NCBI GenBank assembly: GCA_902600225.1
Contig: CACKIH010000009.1
Coordinates: forward strand, 1-43,496
Direction: 5' to 3'
Source: an uncultured Alphaproteobacteria bacterium
GTDB lineage: Bacteria > Pseudomonadota > Alphaproteobacteria > HIMB59 > GCA-002718135
DNA: 43,496 nucleotides
Made by a program: the position numbers and the translations under genes. How positions within the stretch are numbered: the stretch's first letter is position 1; each line of letters begins with the position of its first letter. The notes beneath the pieces are model-generated. The model ran no database searches and was not told where the DNA came from. It saw only the letters and a program-made list of their open reading frames with translations. Below, in pieces: positions 9,439 to 13,687 of this stretch.

Positions 9439-10278
9439 TTATTGTTGAGAATTATTTTCTAAGGTTTGTACGTGTATATCCAAATTTTCAATAACAGCAT
9501 CATTATTGGTATTATCATAAAAAACACCTTTAATAGGTGCAGCATAACTCGCATCTAATCCACAAGAAACACGTACGTATCTTTCATCTGGACTGCACTT
9601 ATTTGTAGGATCAAATCCCACCCAACCTAAGTCATTTATATAAAATTCTGCCCACGCATGTGTAGATTGAAATTCTGAAGAATGGGAATTGTTATGCATA
9701 TAACCATTTACATATCTAGCAGGTATTCCTAAAGTTTTTGCTGCGGCAATCATAATATGTGCTTGATCCTGACAGACTCCCTTTTTCTGATAAAATGCTT
9801 CAATGGCTGTTGTTTGATTATTTGTCGTTAAAGGTTTGTATTCAATTTTTTCAGCTACTAGTTTCATAAGATTATGAGATGTTTCTAGATTTTCATTTTC
9901 ATTAAAACAATTTTTAGCTTCATTAGCTAAATTTTTTATATCCGCATTTGCTTTTGTTAAATTTGATTCTCTTAAGTAAACTAATGGATCTATTTTATCA
10001 GAAGAACTCTGGTAAATTCCTTTTGTATCAAATGTTTCAACTTTTCCAAGAACTGTAAATTGAATTTTTTTAACCTTGTTTGTATTTGTAAAACTTTGAA
10101 TATTATTAGCCTCACCATCCTGATAAATTTTTGATTTTTTGGCTGAGTCGTTATGGACATTCCACTCTAAAATTTTAAGACCATTATATTCTGAAGGATG
10201 CAGTTTAGTGGTTTGAATTAATCCCACAACTGGATTTTTATACTCATACTTAGTTGTGTGTTCGATTATTAGTTCCAT
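9439..10278 (-). CDS. Transglutaminase-like cysteine protease/amidase of the ATP-grasp/alpha-E cluster
   Basis: A 279-residue protein with the bacterial transglutaminase N-terminal domain (about 1-95: MELIIEHTTKYEYKNPV) followed by a papain-like transglutaminase core. The catalytic triad is intact: Cys169 in GVCQDQAHI, His207 in STHAWAEF and Asp223 in GFDPTN. The open frame extends 13 codons upstream into the end of the alpha-E gene, but MELIIEH is the family start and gives a 1-nt spacer after that stop. In this conserved three-gene cluster it is predicted to hydrolyse or transfer amide bonds in a peptide made by the ATP-grasp partner (Iyer and colleagues' amidoligase analysis). There is no signal peptide, so it acts in the cytoplasm. 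Confidence 0.88.
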   Translation of the reverse strand: MELIIEHTTKYEYKNPVVGLIQTTKLHPSEYNGLKILEWNVHNDSAKKSKIYQDGEANNIQSFTNTNKVKKIQFTVLGKVETFDTKGIYQSSSDKIDPLVYLRESNLTKANADIKNLANEAKNCFNENENLETSHNLMKLVAEKIEYKPLTTNNQTTAIEAFYQKKGVCQDQAHIMIAAAKTLGIPARYVNGYMHNNSHSSEFQSTHAWAEFYINDLGWVGFDPTNKCSPDERYVRVSCGLDASYAAPIKGVFYDNTNNDAVIENLDIHVQTLENNSQQ

Positions 10279-10279
10279 A

Positions 10280-11215
10280 TTAATTAAAAAACTCCTTATG
10301 TATTTCGTTATCAACACTAGATATTTTTCTAATAAATTGAGTTACAAATTGATGAAGTCCATATTCAACAATAGTTTCTATTTTTTCTTCTTGAATTTTA
10401 GTATTTAGATCTTTTAAATTATTATAAATTCTTCCAACTTTTTCTGGACTGCATGTTAGGTTGGTTAAATGTTTAACAATATTCTGAATACAAAAACTTA
10501 AAGATCTAGGGCAATTATTATTTAAAACTAAAAAGTCAGCAATTTTAGTTGCGGTAATATTACCATCGTATGCCCATCTAAAAGCTCTAAAAGAAGATAA
10601 AGAGCGAAGCAATATACTCCATTGCATATTATCGATATTACCACCTACATATTGAGGCTTAGGTAATAAAACAAAATACTTTACATCTAATAATCTGGCA
10701 GAATTATCAGCCCTCTCAATAAATAAACCAAGAAAAAGAAAATTATAACCATCATTTCTAAGCAAAGAACTTAATGATCCTCTAAATAAGTTTACTTGTT
10801 CTATTGTCCACTCTGTCAGATCAGGTAAATCAGATTTTGTAAATTTTTTTTCTTTTAAGTTTAGTATCTCTTGATAAGTTTTATTAATTGCTAACCAAGA
10901 CTCAGGGGTAAAGGAAGTTCTAACTACTAATGCGTTATTTCGTGCATTAAGAATACAATTGTAAACAGATGAAGGATTACTTTCATCAAAAAATAAATAA
11001 TCTTCTACATTTTTCTGTTCAATTGTATCATATTTATTTTTATATCCTTCAATTGATCCAGAAGCAGATAAAACTGATTCCCATTCATTATTATAACCAC
11101 TTGGATTTGGAAAAAGAGACATTCTATAACCAACATCCAAAAGCCTGGCTGTAGTTTCAGCTCTTTCCATATAACGACTGATCCAATATAGATATTCAGC
11201 AGTTCTACTTAACAT
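10280..11215 (-). CDS. Alpha-E domain protein (COG2307/DUF403)
   Basis: A 311-residue all-helical protein. The opening MLSRTAEYLYWISRYMERAETTARLLDV is the hallmark of the alpha-E family, and FLGLFIERADNSARLLDVKY at about 160-180 repeats the same ER-x-ARLLD pattern. Alpha-E proteins almost always sit with a circularly permuted ATP-grasp enzyme and a transglutaminase, as here. They are thought to be a structural or catalytic partner in peptide amide synthesis; no activity has been settled. It follows the ATP-grasp gene by 9 nt and ends 1 nt before the transglutaminase. Confidence 0.92.
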   Translation of the reverse strand: MLSRTAEYLYWISRYMERAETTARLLDVGYRMSLFPNPSGYNNEWESVLSASGSIEGYKNKYDTIEQKNVEDYLFFDESNPSSVYNCILNARNNALVVRTSFTPESWLAINKTYQEILNLKEKKFTKSDLPDLTEWTIEQVNLFRGSLSSLLRNDGYNFLFLGLFIERADNSARLLDVKYFVLLPKPQYVGGNIDNMQWSILLRSLSSFRAFRWAYDGNITATKIADFLVLNNNCPRSLSFCIQNIVKHLTNLTCSPEKVGRIYNNLKDLNTKIQEEKIETIVEYGLHQFVTQFIRKISSVDNEIHKEFFN

Positions 11216-11224
11216 TTTTATTCC

Positions 11225-12631
11225 TCATTCAGCTAAAACCCATGTGTCTTTCACACCGCCTCCTTGGCTAGAATTTACTACAAACGAACCTTCATTCATT
11301 GCAACTCTAGTTAAACCACCAGAACTTAATTGAGCTTTCTCTCCAATTAAACAAAATGGACGTAAATCTACCCTTCTTCCCTCAACTTGATTTTTGATGA
11401 GTGTTGGTGAAAATGAAAGATCAAGTAAAGGTTGAGCTATATATCCTTTTGGATTTGTTGAAAGTTTTGTTTTAAATTCATCTATAGAGGATTTAGAAGA
11501 TTTTGGACCTATTAACATCCCATAACCTCCAGATCCATCAACCTCTTTTACGACAAGTTCATTTATATTATCTAAAACATATTTTAATTCTTGTTCCTTT
11601 TCGCAATTCCATGTTTCAACGTTATCTAAGATTGGTTGTTCGCCTAAATAAAATTTGATCATCTCAGGTACATAAATATAAATTGCTTTGTCATCAGCTA
11701 TGCCTGCTCCAGGAGCTGAACAGATATTGACACCACCTGTTCTATAAACATCCATAATTCCTGGAATACCAATTACAGATTGAGGATTAAAACATAGAGG
11801 ATCTAAAAAATCGTCATCAATTCTTCTGTAAACTACATCTACTCTTTTTGGACCGTCAACTGTTTTCATATAAAGATATTTTCCCTCAACAAATAAATCT
11901 GTTGATTCAACCATTTCAATACCCATTTGATCTGATAAAAAACTATGTTCGTAATAAGCGCTATTTAAAGGACCAGGTGTAAGTAACACACATACTGGTT
12001 CAGGATTTTCACATTTAATAGGAGCTAAACTCATCAAGGTTTGCAAAAGTCTTGTTGGGTAGTCATCTATTGGTGTTACTCTGTTGTTATGAAATAGATC
12101 AGGAAACATTCGCATCATTATTTCTCTATTTTCTAGCATGTAGGAAACACCACTTGGTGTTCGACAATTATCTTCTAAAACAAAATAGTCGTTCGGTCCT
12201 GTTCTAACTAAATCTATACCAATTATAGGGCTATAAATATCTCTAGGTGGAGAAAAACCAAACATTGAAGGTTCAAATGATTTTTTTTTGTAAATAATTT
12301 CTTTAGGAATTATATTGGCTTTTATTATTTCACCTTGATTATAAATATCAGCAAGAAACGCATTAAGTGCTTTAGCTCTTTGGATTACTCCTCTTTCTAA
12401 CCTTAACCATTCTGTATAAGTAAATATCCTAGGAATTAAATCAAACGGAATTATTCTTTCTCTTGCAGTTTCGTTATTTGTAGAAAATGTAATTCCAATA
12501 TTTCTAAAATGAGTTTCAGCTTCAGCATTCTTTTCAAGAATAACTTTTGAAGTCATTTGATCTAACCAATCATTAATGTTGTTATAATGATTTCTTATAA
12601 CTGACTCAGATTGGTACATTTCATTAAACAT
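11225..12631 (-). CDS. Circularly permuted ATP-grasp type 2 protein (COG2308)
   Basis: A 468-residue cytoplasmic protein, first gene of the ATP-grasp/alpha-E/transglutaminase operon. Recognisable family blocks are FDLIPRIFTYTEWLRLERGV (about 82-101), EDNCRTPSGVSYMLENR (about 152-168), the VVYRRIDDDFLDPL block, KEVDGSGGYGMLIGP and the RRVDLRPFCL/GGLTRVA terminal motifs. By family it should activate a carboxylate with ATP and form an amide or peptide bond; the true substrates are unknown. The 127-nt stretch before the ATG is preceded by two tandem glutamine-riboswitch-like RNAs, so expression probably responds to glutamine. A weak AAGG lies 11 nt before the start. Confidence 0.92.
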   Translation of the reverse strand: MFNEMYQSESVIRNHYNNINDWLDQMTSKVILEKNAEAETHFRNIGITFSTNNETARERIIPFDLIPRIFTYTEWLRLERGVIQRAKALNAFLADIYNQGEIIKANIIPKEIIYKKKSFEPSMFGFSPPRDIYSPIIGIDLVRTGPNDYFVLEDNCRTPSGVSYMLENREIMMRMFPDLFHNNRVTPIDDYPTRLLQTLMSLAPIKCENPEPVCVLLTPGPLNSAYYEHSFLSDQMGIEMVESTDLFVEGKYLYMKTVDGPKRVDVVYRRIDDDFLDPLCFNPQSVIGIPGIMDVYRTGGVNICSAPGAGIADDKAIYIYVPEMIKFYLGEQPILDNVETWNCEKEQELKYVLDNINELVVKEVDGSGGYGMLIGPKSSKSSIDEFKTKLSTNPKGYIAQPLLDLSFSPTLIKNQVEGRRVDLRPFCLIGEKAQLSSGGLTRVAMNEGSFVVNSSQGGGVKDTWVLAE

Positions 12632-12653
12632 TAAAGAGTAAACCTTTTGAGTT

Positions 12654-12741
12654 TTAAGTAGAATATTTTTTTATTACTTAACTTTTCAACCATAGTTATA
12701 ACAAACCTTTCTTATTCGTTATAATTCATGCTTAGCTATGG
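12654..12741 (-). promoter_or_regulatory. Leader hairpins between aptamers and start codon (possible expression platform)
   Basis: Between the second aptamer and the ATP-grasp ATG the leader can form two hairpins. The first pairs ccatag/ctatgg (12690-12695 with 12736-12741), continued by ttataac/gttataa (12696-12702 with 12718-12724) with an 11-nt bulge. The second pairs TTAAGTA/TACTTAA (12654-12660 with 12675-12681). The second hairpin ends 7 nt before the weak AAGG ribosome-binding site. Neither is followed by a clean U-run, so control at translation or RNA stability is more likely than termination. The pairing is visible; its role is inference. Confidence 0.4.
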
Positions 12742-12758
12742 AAATTAAAATAACATCC

Positions 12759-12809
12759 GCGTTCCTTCAGCTTTAGCCTACTTCCGATCTGTTAATACAG
12801 ATTGAACGA
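12759..12809 (-). promoter_or_regulatory. Glutamine riboswitch (glnA RNA motif), gene-proximal copy
   Basis: On the minus strand the element begins TCGTTC and ends GAAGGAACGC. It has P1 CGUUC/GAACG, P2 AUCUGU/ACAGAU, the conserved CGGAAGUA, P3 GGC-UAAA-GCU and the conserved GAAGGAACGC. These strings and their order are those of the glnA RNA (glutamine aptamer), known mainly from cyanobacteria, their phages and marine metagenomes. It lies 127 nt before the start codon of the ATP-grasp gene, in the sense orientation. A second aptamer precedes it by 15 nt. Confidence 0.87.
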
Positions 12810-12824
12810 TTTAATAACTTGCAT

Positions 12825-12876
12825 GCGTTCCTTCAACTTTCGTTTACTTCCGTTTTGAATTATTCAAAATGAACGA
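12825..12876 (-). promoter_or_regulatory. Glutamine riboswitch (glnA RNA motif), upstream copy
   Basis: Same architecture as its neighbour: P1 CGUUC/GAACG, P2 UUUUGAA/UUCAAAA, then CGGAAGUA, P3 AAC-GAAA-GUU and GAAGGAACGC. Both variable helices differ in sequence from the other copy but keep pairing (compensatory changes), which is strong evidence for a conserved RNA fold and not a simple DNA repeat. A TATTAT box at 12887-12892 would place a transcript start at about 12880, just before the aptamer; no good -35 is visible. Tandem glnA RNAs are known and would sharpen the response to glutamine. Confidence 0.88.
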
Positions 12877-12932
12877 TGAAATTTTAATAATAAAATTTAT
12901 TTATTTTTAAAAATGAATTTCATACTAATTTG

Positions 12933-12951
12933 ATATGCATTTTTTGCATAT
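12933..12951 (-). terminator. Short AT-rich inverted repeat downstream of pcs
   Basis: The 7-bp palindrome ATATGCA/TGCATAT (12933-12939 with 12945-12951) has a 5-nt loop. It lies in the spacer between the end of the phosphatidylcholine synthase gene and the riboswitch region. It may be a weak terminator or processing hairpin that separates the two minus-strand units, but no U-run follows on the minus strand, so the role is uncertain. The rest of this 348-nt gene-free stretch (12632-12979) holds the two aptamers and leader hairpins listed separately. Confidence 0.3.
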
Positions 12952-12979
12952 ACAAAATATTATTGCATTACATACACTT

Positions 12980-13687
12980 TTAATAGTCTTTTATAGATCT
13001 AAGAAAACAAATATAAACGAAATAACCCGTACAAATTAACCAAATCAAAAGTACAATAGTATCATTTATAATTAAGTTTATTTCATTTTTTGTTACTAGT
13101 CGTAGTGTTGTTGCGGCCCAAACAACAGTAAAAAAAATTGTTAAATTCCTAAATGATTTCACTCTTAATGGATGAACAAACTTCCATGGAACAAATGTCA
13201 ATACTGATAAAATTATTATAATAATTAGGTTTATCCATTCATTTGTATTTAAAATAAAAAAATACAAAACTACAATATTCCAGACTGCCGGAAAGCCTTG
13301 AAAATAATAATCATCCGTTTTCATATTAACATTTATAAAGGTATACAATGAGACTCCAAATATAAGAGCAGGTATAATCATTTCAAAACCAGATGGCACC
13401 ATCTGAAACCAGTAAATCATTAGAGCTGGATTGATAACGTAATTTAGATAATCAATAATTGAATCTAAAATAATTCCATCTAGATTTGGTGCTTTTTCCT
13501 CAACACCAACCTTCCTGGCTAAAGTTCCATCAACTCCATCTACAAGTAAGGCCATACCAAGCCATAAAAAACTACCAACCTGATCATTATTTAATATTGA
13601 TATTAAGGCAAGAAACCCAAGTATAGCTCCTGATCCAGTGAAAGCATGTACACCCCATGCGGATATTTGATCTTTATCAACTTTCAT
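12980..13687 (-). CDS. pcs: Phosphatidylcholine synthase (CDP-diacylglycerol-choline O-phosphatidyltransferase)
   Basis: Makes phosphatidylcholine in one step from CDP-diacylglycerol and choline in the inner membrane. The 235-residue protein has several membrane segments and the complete CDP-alcohol phosphatidyltransferase signature: Asp50, Asp53, Ala57-Arg58, Gly71, Asp75 and Asp79. The family-specific opening AWGVHAFTGSGA (10-21) and VPWKFVHPLRV separate Pcs from phosphatidylglycerol-phosphate synthase. The pathway is typical of Alphaproteobacteria and needs external choline. The gene starts at an ATG at 13687; the 96-nt AT-rich spacer upstream shows no feature. Confidence 0.9.
   Translation of the reverse strand: MKVDKDQISAWGVHAFTGSGAILGFLALISILNNDQVGSFLWLGMALLVDGVDGTLARKVGVEEKAPNLDGIILDSIIDYLNYVINPALMIYWFQMVPSGFEMIIPALIFGVSLYTFINVNMKTDDYYFQGFPAVWNIVVLYFFILNTNEWINLIIIIILSVLTFVPWKFVHPLRVKSFRNLTIFFTVVWAATTLRLVTKNEINLIINDTIVLLIWLICTGYFVYICFLRSIKDY

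Follow-up and report, generated by a model that had tools for sequence, protein, structure and literature searches.

Tandem glutamine-I riboswitches precede nitrogen genes in a marine alphaproteobacterial family and may switch translation off through a linker and a downstream strand

The stretch of DNA analysed here (the window) comprises 43,496 nucleotides from an uncultured, free-living alphaproteobacterium of the ocean. Three genes on its minus strand, encoding a circularly permuted ATP-grasp protein (11225–12631; PF14403 5e-153, PF04174 1.9e-138), an Alpha-E protein (10280–11215; PF04168 2.3e-86) and a transglutaminase-like protein (9439–10317; PF01841 5.7e-24, PF08379 9.4e-12), form an operon headed by a pair of aptamers in the same direction. 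The transglutaminase gene is listed with a GTG start at 10317, and its true start may be an ATG about 13 codons later. Scanning of the whole window against the 4227 families of Rfam (cmscan, gathering threshold) returned three matches, one tRNA and two copies of the glutamine-I (glnA, RF01739) RNA on the minus strand. Aptamer 1, the 5′ copy, lies at 12822–12877 (66.0 bits, E 1.4e-12) and aptamer 2, the 3′ copy, at 12756–12810 (64.2 bits, E 4.6e-12); each match spans model positions 1–53 of 53, with a gathering score of 35. These Infernal scores bear out a first-pass annotation that had claimed two glnA aptamers in an alphaproteobacterial setting, and the invariant strings and the P2 and P3 pairs that it named are found in the sequence. 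The pair it had placed at 12759–12876 is real, its full extent being 12756–12877; the 15 nt that it gave as spacing are instead 11 nt between the Rfam matches and 17 nt between the P1 helices. The Downstream-peptide RNA (glutamine-II, type 2, RF01704), whose model it had proposed to run as well, shares the same ligand according to the accessible text of a 2018 review (PMC6316151); it stayed below the gathering score across the window in the Rfam scan, which rules out that identity. A pcs-like CDP-alcohol phosphatidyltransferase gene (12980–13687) does adjoin the pair as had been noted, and it lies upstream of the aptamers on the same strand, which rules it out as the target; the operon under control is that of ATP-grasp, Alpha-E and transglutaminase. 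This operon, the regulon to which it belongs, the complementarity between linker and downstream sequence and the leader ORF had all been missed.

Membership in RF01739 is further supported by the P1, P2 and P3 pairing and the conserved CGUUC, CGGAAGUA and GAAGGAACGC in both alignments. In 55 aligned leaders, seven pairs (in P3 of aptamer 1 and P2 of aptamer 2) are changed on both sides with pairing kept, in 9–18 sequences each, and P1 is invariant. The window shares both aptamer sequence and P1/P2/P3 fold with the class, for which nitrogen-gene neighbours and tandem copies have been reported in the part of a 2010 paper available (PMC2864571). In the clade the aptamers lead genes for ammonium transporters (Amt) and glutamine synthetase; for the window's own operon the nitrogen link is taken from the literature alone, as far as the accessible text of two papers goes (PMC6376114, PMC5666114). 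That the aptamers arose by chance or have decayed and lost their function has a negligible probability, as we found nothing in its favor, and it is opposed by E-values near 1e-12, by conservation of the pair before homologous genes across several genera and by the both-sided changes in P2 and P3. We regard the identification of the element as a tandem glutamine-I riboswitch, judged from its sequence, as virtually certain.

The region between the aptamers and the ATP-grasp gene holds several further candidate elements on the minus strand. The linker strand L (CAUGC.A.AGUUAU.UAAAU; 12809–12825) shows 5 + 6 bp complementarity to the 3′ part of a downstream strand D (AUUUCCAUAGCUAAGCAUG; 12727–12745). 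The first C of L (12825) directly follows the GAACG of P1 and is probably C60 in aptamer 1. CCAUAG (12741–12736), in the 5′ part of D, is complementary to CUAUGG (12695–12690) at the start of a 20-codon leader ORF (MVEKLSNKKIFYLKLKRFTL; 12631–12693), which is read from the sequence, carries AAGAAAGG in front and ends in TAATG, within which its stop and the ATP-grasp start overlap. Constrained minimum-free-energy folding gives a possible short and weak hairpin P4 (12740–12758; GGA 12758–12756 with UCC 12742–12740), whose fourth pair reads A-U or U-A depending on the relative. Minimum-free-energy folding also places a hairpin P6 (12695–12726) around the Shine-Dalgarno sequence of the leader ORF, the stem sequence of which varies among ATP-class relatives. 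In the amt1 leaders of L003 and its relatives, which precede ammonium transporter genes, inspection by eye showed, between D and the Shine-Dalgarno sequence of amt, a hairpin that is variable in sequence yet self-complementary.

A leader ORF of 16–22 aa ending at most 8 nt from the main start is present in all 17 classed distinct ATP-grasp leaders, with start codons picked by motif. The leader peptides are similar within two groups and different between them, and this likeness only within groups suggests translational coupling rather than a peptide function. The interval 12500–13100 yielded no terminator-like site, ruling out control by an intrinsic terminator; it holds eight promoter-like sites (shuffle mean 4.9, sd 2.8). 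Control at the translational level is, in our judgment, highly probable.

The three genes match, in their published order, the first three of the Anbu operon (ATP-grasp, Alpha-E, transglutaminase, Anbu), as given in the accessible text of PMC6376114. Anbu, usually encoded with these genes, is upregulated on nitrogen limitation in Pseudomonas putida, according to the available portions of two reports (PMC6376114, PMC5666114). The same three-gene order occurs in G400, a genome of a second alphaproteobacterial family (f10), in which a single aptamer is followed by ATP-grasp and then by Alpha-E and transglutaminase. The operon differs from the published one in the Anbu gene itself, which was found in none of seven genomes of the window's family (f1), including the window's own (75% complete), and in neither of two f10 genomes searched. 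The ATP-grasp family is present in five of seven f1 genomes searched for it and absent from G092 and G062. In the sister family, f2, Anbu was found in four of five genomes searched; the ATP-grasp gene was likewise present in four of five, with Anbu divergent upstream and no RF01739 match.

A search across the order detected RF01739 in 106 of 162 genomes, all 106 belonging to f1; four listed f1 genomes, 16 listed f2 genomes and 36 further genomes whose family is not given had no match. The glutamine-I RNA is near-universal in f1. The pair of families is one that we take to fit the HIMB59/AEGEAN-169 lineage. In a sample of the class, six of 385 genomes match (two of f1 and four of f10), and in a sample of the phylum, too thin for ranking lineages, the window's own genome is the single match among 398, so that the RNA is rare in this sample. 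Synechococcus elongatus was the sole match among 14 control genomes in the order, class and phylum searches. The wider distribution that the first-pass annotation had suggested is thereby supported. In each of the four f10 genomes a lone aptamer precedes a gene that, judged by sequence, is the same ATP-grasp gene, PF14403 being confirmed in the two tested. Two alphaproteobacterial families thus place a glutamine aptamer before the ATP-grasp operon in different architectures. A scan of named species genomes for the tandem pattern gave at least 120 loci; the titles of the 80 listed read 'uncultured Alphaproteobacteria' for 54, SAR86 for 11, SAR116 for 2 and other or unspecified Proteobacteria for 13, with no cyanobacterium among them.

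Within the window's genome (1.25 Mb in 48 contigs, 75% complete) there are six aptamers in three pairs, the other two of which lie in front of two nearby ammonium transporter genes (PF00909). G111, a genome of the same genus that is 96% complete, holds eight aptamers in four pairs: one before the ATP-grasp gene, one before each of two amt genes and one between the P-II gene and the glutamine synthetase gene (glnA). Across the 12 matching genomes of 14 searched, 48 of 52 aptamers are paired (as counted from the tabulated matches), and of the four single copies two (L008, L174) lead a distinct, third type of Amt. Outside the loci examined lie the single aptamers G129:C10 and G130:C6:5565 and the loci L326, L327 and L329. 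A predicted glutamine regulon of ammonium transporters, glutamine synthetase and the ATP-grasp operon thus extends across one marine alphaproteobacterial family.

We also searched for the protein components of nitrogen control. A single P-II gene was found in six of seven f1 genomes, and in five of these no more than 100 nt separate its end from a listed aptamer pair; none was shown in the window's own, incomplete genome. Two P-II genes are present in four of five f2 genomes searched and one in G038, and an additional Amt search of four f2 genomes placed one P-II gene immediately ahead of an amt gene in each. With the NtrC model TIGR01818 (cut-off 558.6 bits), no f1, f2 or f10 genome passed, and one of the 14 control genomes did. 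The best scores were 114–193 bits in f1, 67–78 in f2 and 520–524 in f10, the last being the only family with full-length, high-scoring NtrC-like proteins, which still fall under the cut-off. These results suggest that NtrC is absent from f1 and that control by RNA has replaced control by protein in this family.

We collected 157 tandem units with a C[AG]TGC linker (duplicates included). Eight could not be classed and were dropped, seven of them showing a D-like strand and one (L154) lacking it; the remaining 149 reduce to 83 distinct units, namely 27 glnA, 22 amt1, 17 amt2 and 17 ATP-grasp leaders. Here amt1 and amt2 are leader classes set by start-site motif and not gene clades, since the Amt tree clusters L028 (amt1) with L004, an amt2 protein. 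In the 83 leaders the linker starts with CAUGC, holds a GUU block and is 17–18 nt long; D begins about 15–27 nt past aptamer 2 and is complementary to L over 5 bp in one block and 6 bp in another. Of 913 cells over the 83 distinct units, 901 are paired in register, against 10–47% when the strands are slid by 1–4 nt, a control that favours a structure derived from the same sequences. When D was shuffled 200 times per unit (dinucleotide), no more than 3% of the shuffles equalled D in pairing with L, and this held for every one of the 83 units. The 5-bp block is invariant, and changes in the 6-bp block, which is fully paired in 75 of 83 units and keeps four or five of its six pairs in the other eight, are mostly one-sided. 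There are few true double compensations because L and D are highly conserved, and support for L-D comes mostly from conservation rather than double change.

The scarcity of such compensations is also what would be expected if the aptamers were functional and L-D a mere scaffold, with control exerted otherwise, for instance by exchange of P1 strands or by Rho. Consistent with this, RNAalifold, run on the 55 leaders (alignment A1) to obtain an unbiased consensus, did not return L-D; it preferred a fold in which P1 strands of different aptamers pair, GAACGCAU of aptamer 1 being able to pair with AUCGUUC of aptamer 2. In unconstrained folding, the native P1 has a mean probability of 0.12–0.26 in aptamer 1 and 0.03–0.55 in aptamer 2, depending on the class. 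The predicted strand exchange may be an artefact, the P1 strands being identical, or it may be a fold that really competes.

The relation of D to the start sites speaks against a mere scaffold. In each target class D also carries, in its 5′ part, a complement of the translation start, the class-matched D/start sequences being GAUUUCAUA/UAUGAAAUU for glnA, UUCCAUA/UAUGGAG for amt2, UUUCCAU/AUGGAGG for amt1 and CCAUAG/CUAUGG for ATP-grasp. We compared D with 14-nt windows of the same leader, excluding those closely overlapping it; the median fraction of windows that matched D's start pairing was 0.000 for glnA (27 units) and amt2 (17), 0.048 for amt1 (22) and 0.107 for ATP-grasp (17). As a predicted start complement among the windows of its own leader, D is therefore the best or nearly the best in glnA and amt2, good in amt1 and modest in ATP-grasp. 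When the start regions were shuffled (dinucleotide), a median of 3% were as good for glnA, 11% for amt2, 23% for ATP-grasp and 41% for amt1, so that this support is clear only in glnA, and D is unexceptional for amt1 and ATP-grasp. Swapping classes, the D of glnA pairs best with glnA starts (-8.2 kcal/mol versus -3.7 to -6.5 kcal/mol with others); the D strands of the other three classes showed no selectivity for their own start site. The rank of D in glnA and amt2 leaders, and the parallel divergence of D and start site between glnA and the other classes, make the scaffold reading improbable.

We therefore favor, with some confidence in what remains a model, a tandem glutamine-I OFF switch that acts on translation of the operon through L, D and the coupled leader ORF. 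At low glutamine, L would pair with D and leave the start site open (ON). Binding of glutamine induces a 'linchpin' pair G23-C60 at the base of P1, as described in the accessible text of a structural report (PMC11477058). If C60 is the first base of L, as the mapping implies, this pair would take that base; the helix below P1 would then weaken, and D would be freed to cover the start site (OFF). The short leader ORF, coupled to the first gene, would carry this translational control to the operon, and an aptamer on either side of a single L would make the response sharper. We consider the toggling between L and D somewhat more probable than its alternatives and the sign, OFF by glutamine, likely, because genes for uptake and synthesis should be repressed by their product and Anbu is upregulated on nitrogen limitation.

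The opposite sign was weighed by folding. With both P1 helices enforced, L-D rises to 10.4–10.6 expected pairs in the ATP-grasp, amt1 and amt2 classes and the start site becomes more open, a gain that alone would predict activation by glutamine: the ligand would stabilise both P1 helices, L-D would form, D would be kept off the start and translation would go up. Measured cyanobacterial glutamine riboswitches, of types 1 and 2, likewise activate expression on binding, as far as the available text of the 2018 review states (PMC6316151). When the C after P1 and J2/3 were also blocked, L-D fell to 5.6–6.3 expected pairs in three of four classes. In glnA leaders D-start pairing was favoured in all three folding models, and in the window's own ATP-grasp class it amounted to 0.0–0.7 expected pairs in all three. 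In these models the folding energies give no clean switch. An ON switch would mean positive feedback, with glutamine turning on ammonium transporters and glutamine synthetase, and the linchpin, which uses the C60 taken as the first base of L, should weaken L-D rather than strengthen it; we hold the ON sign to be unlikely and retain the OFF switch as the preferred reading.

The same tandem pattern is common in viral contigs (119 stretches, L206–L324). Of 117 viral pairs, 116 have linkers of 6–11 nt, and CAUGC is absent from all of the viral linkers. Exactly from the C that follows P1 of aptamer 2, a helix at least 4 bp long begins in 64 of 65 distinct viral units, its other arm carrying or abutting a Shine-Dalgarno sequence, with varied pairs such as CACCU/GGGUG, CAUCU/GGAUG and CAAUCUU/GAGAUUG. 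By contrast, among the 83 f1-type units such a helix is found in 12 and meets a Shine-Dalgarno sequence in two; for 30 other tandem units from genomes the numbers are 20 and 13. By the logic of the linchpin, a Shine-Dalgarno sequence in the helix below P1 implies that the viral copies should be ON switches. Glutamine riboswitches of the same aptamer family are known from phages of marine proteobacterial systems, OM43 phage Melnitz and Pelagibacter phage Mosig, in the part of the report available (PMC9004378). Among the rows listed, many viral tandem aptamers lie ahead of ORFs of about 50 codons.

Other tandem copies were seen in front of different genes. In SAR86 or gammaproteobacterial records, where titled (L063, L067, L102, L111, L112, L129 and others), tandem or single copies precede one protein type, which by its motif we take to resemble type II glutamine synthetase; some of these linkers hold CAGGAU facing a downstream AUCCUG, and others do not. 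In L047 and L105 three aptamers stand in a row, and the start of the next protein looks by eye like that of an exported outer-membrane protein. Tandem copies also stand ahead of small proteins in L055, L073 and L119, which presumably resemble DUF4278. This domain has been tied to glutamine riboswitches in cyanobacteria in the accessible text of the 2018 review (PMC6316151).

Horizontal transfer, which the first-pass annotation had raised, finds support in one case. In a midpoint-rooted Amt tree of 19 rows, in which L350 (labelled as without riboswitch) is the same protein as L174 (one aptamer), the nine Amts encoded downstream of tandem leaders unite in a single clade (96/99), separate from those of f2 and f10. 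This clade includes L153 and the Amts of two SAR116-labelled genomes, which have a tandem leader of the same kind. The SAR116-labelled proteins are 73–74% identical to the amt1 protein of the window's genome, and tandem-leader Amts share 49–56% identity with their nearest f2 counterparts. Unless the labels are wrong, the SAR116-labelled Amts fit a transfer of the gene together with its leader. A broader scheme can be offered tentatively, as possible though rather doubtful: host and phage in the same waters would use opposite signs, the inserted linker and anti-start strand making an OFF switch of the helix below P1 that the ligand melts and the phage Shine-Dalgarno helix giving ON, while RNA would have replaced GlnK/NtrC nitrogen sensing in f1 and moved between lineages with Amt.

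The aptamer class itself is already known. Weinberg and colleagues in 2010, in the text available, listed the glnA RNA under 'Cyanobacteria, marine' with tandem copies and glutamine synthetase, PII and Amt neighbours (PMC2864571). A 2013 survey listed 13 glnA sites, spread over no more than three taxonomic groups, and a 2024 paper counts glnA riboswitches among known tandem riboswitches, both as stated in accessible parts of the texts. The class was described as restricted to cyanobacteria in 2018, with glutamine synthetase, PII and Amt neighbours apparently in environmental sequences only, as far as the available text of that review shows (PMC6316151); it is also reported in OM43 and Pelagibacter phages (PMC9004378, in part). 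The window departs from the class as described in its alphaproteobacterial family host, in the 17–18 nt linker complementary to a downstream strand and in the ATP-grasp operon as part of the regulon. We found no paper, in the open-access literature to the extent that its text was accessible, on these riboswitches in this bacterial lineage or on the linker-D platform, and the nitrogen regulon and the tandem-specific L/D platform look new.

Family f1 offers a host for the metagenomic glnA RNAs that earlier reports placed ahead of Amt and glutamine synthetase genes but could assign to no organism. The ATP-grasp/Alpha-E/transglutaminase operon, a presumed peptide-making gene set, is tied to glutamine in two separate alphaproteobacterial families, and one aptamer wired for either sign is a concrete, testable claim. 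The bacteria of f1 apparently run their nitrogen use with paired glutamine sensors, which suggests a streamlined ocean lineage that reads its nitrogen state through RNA.
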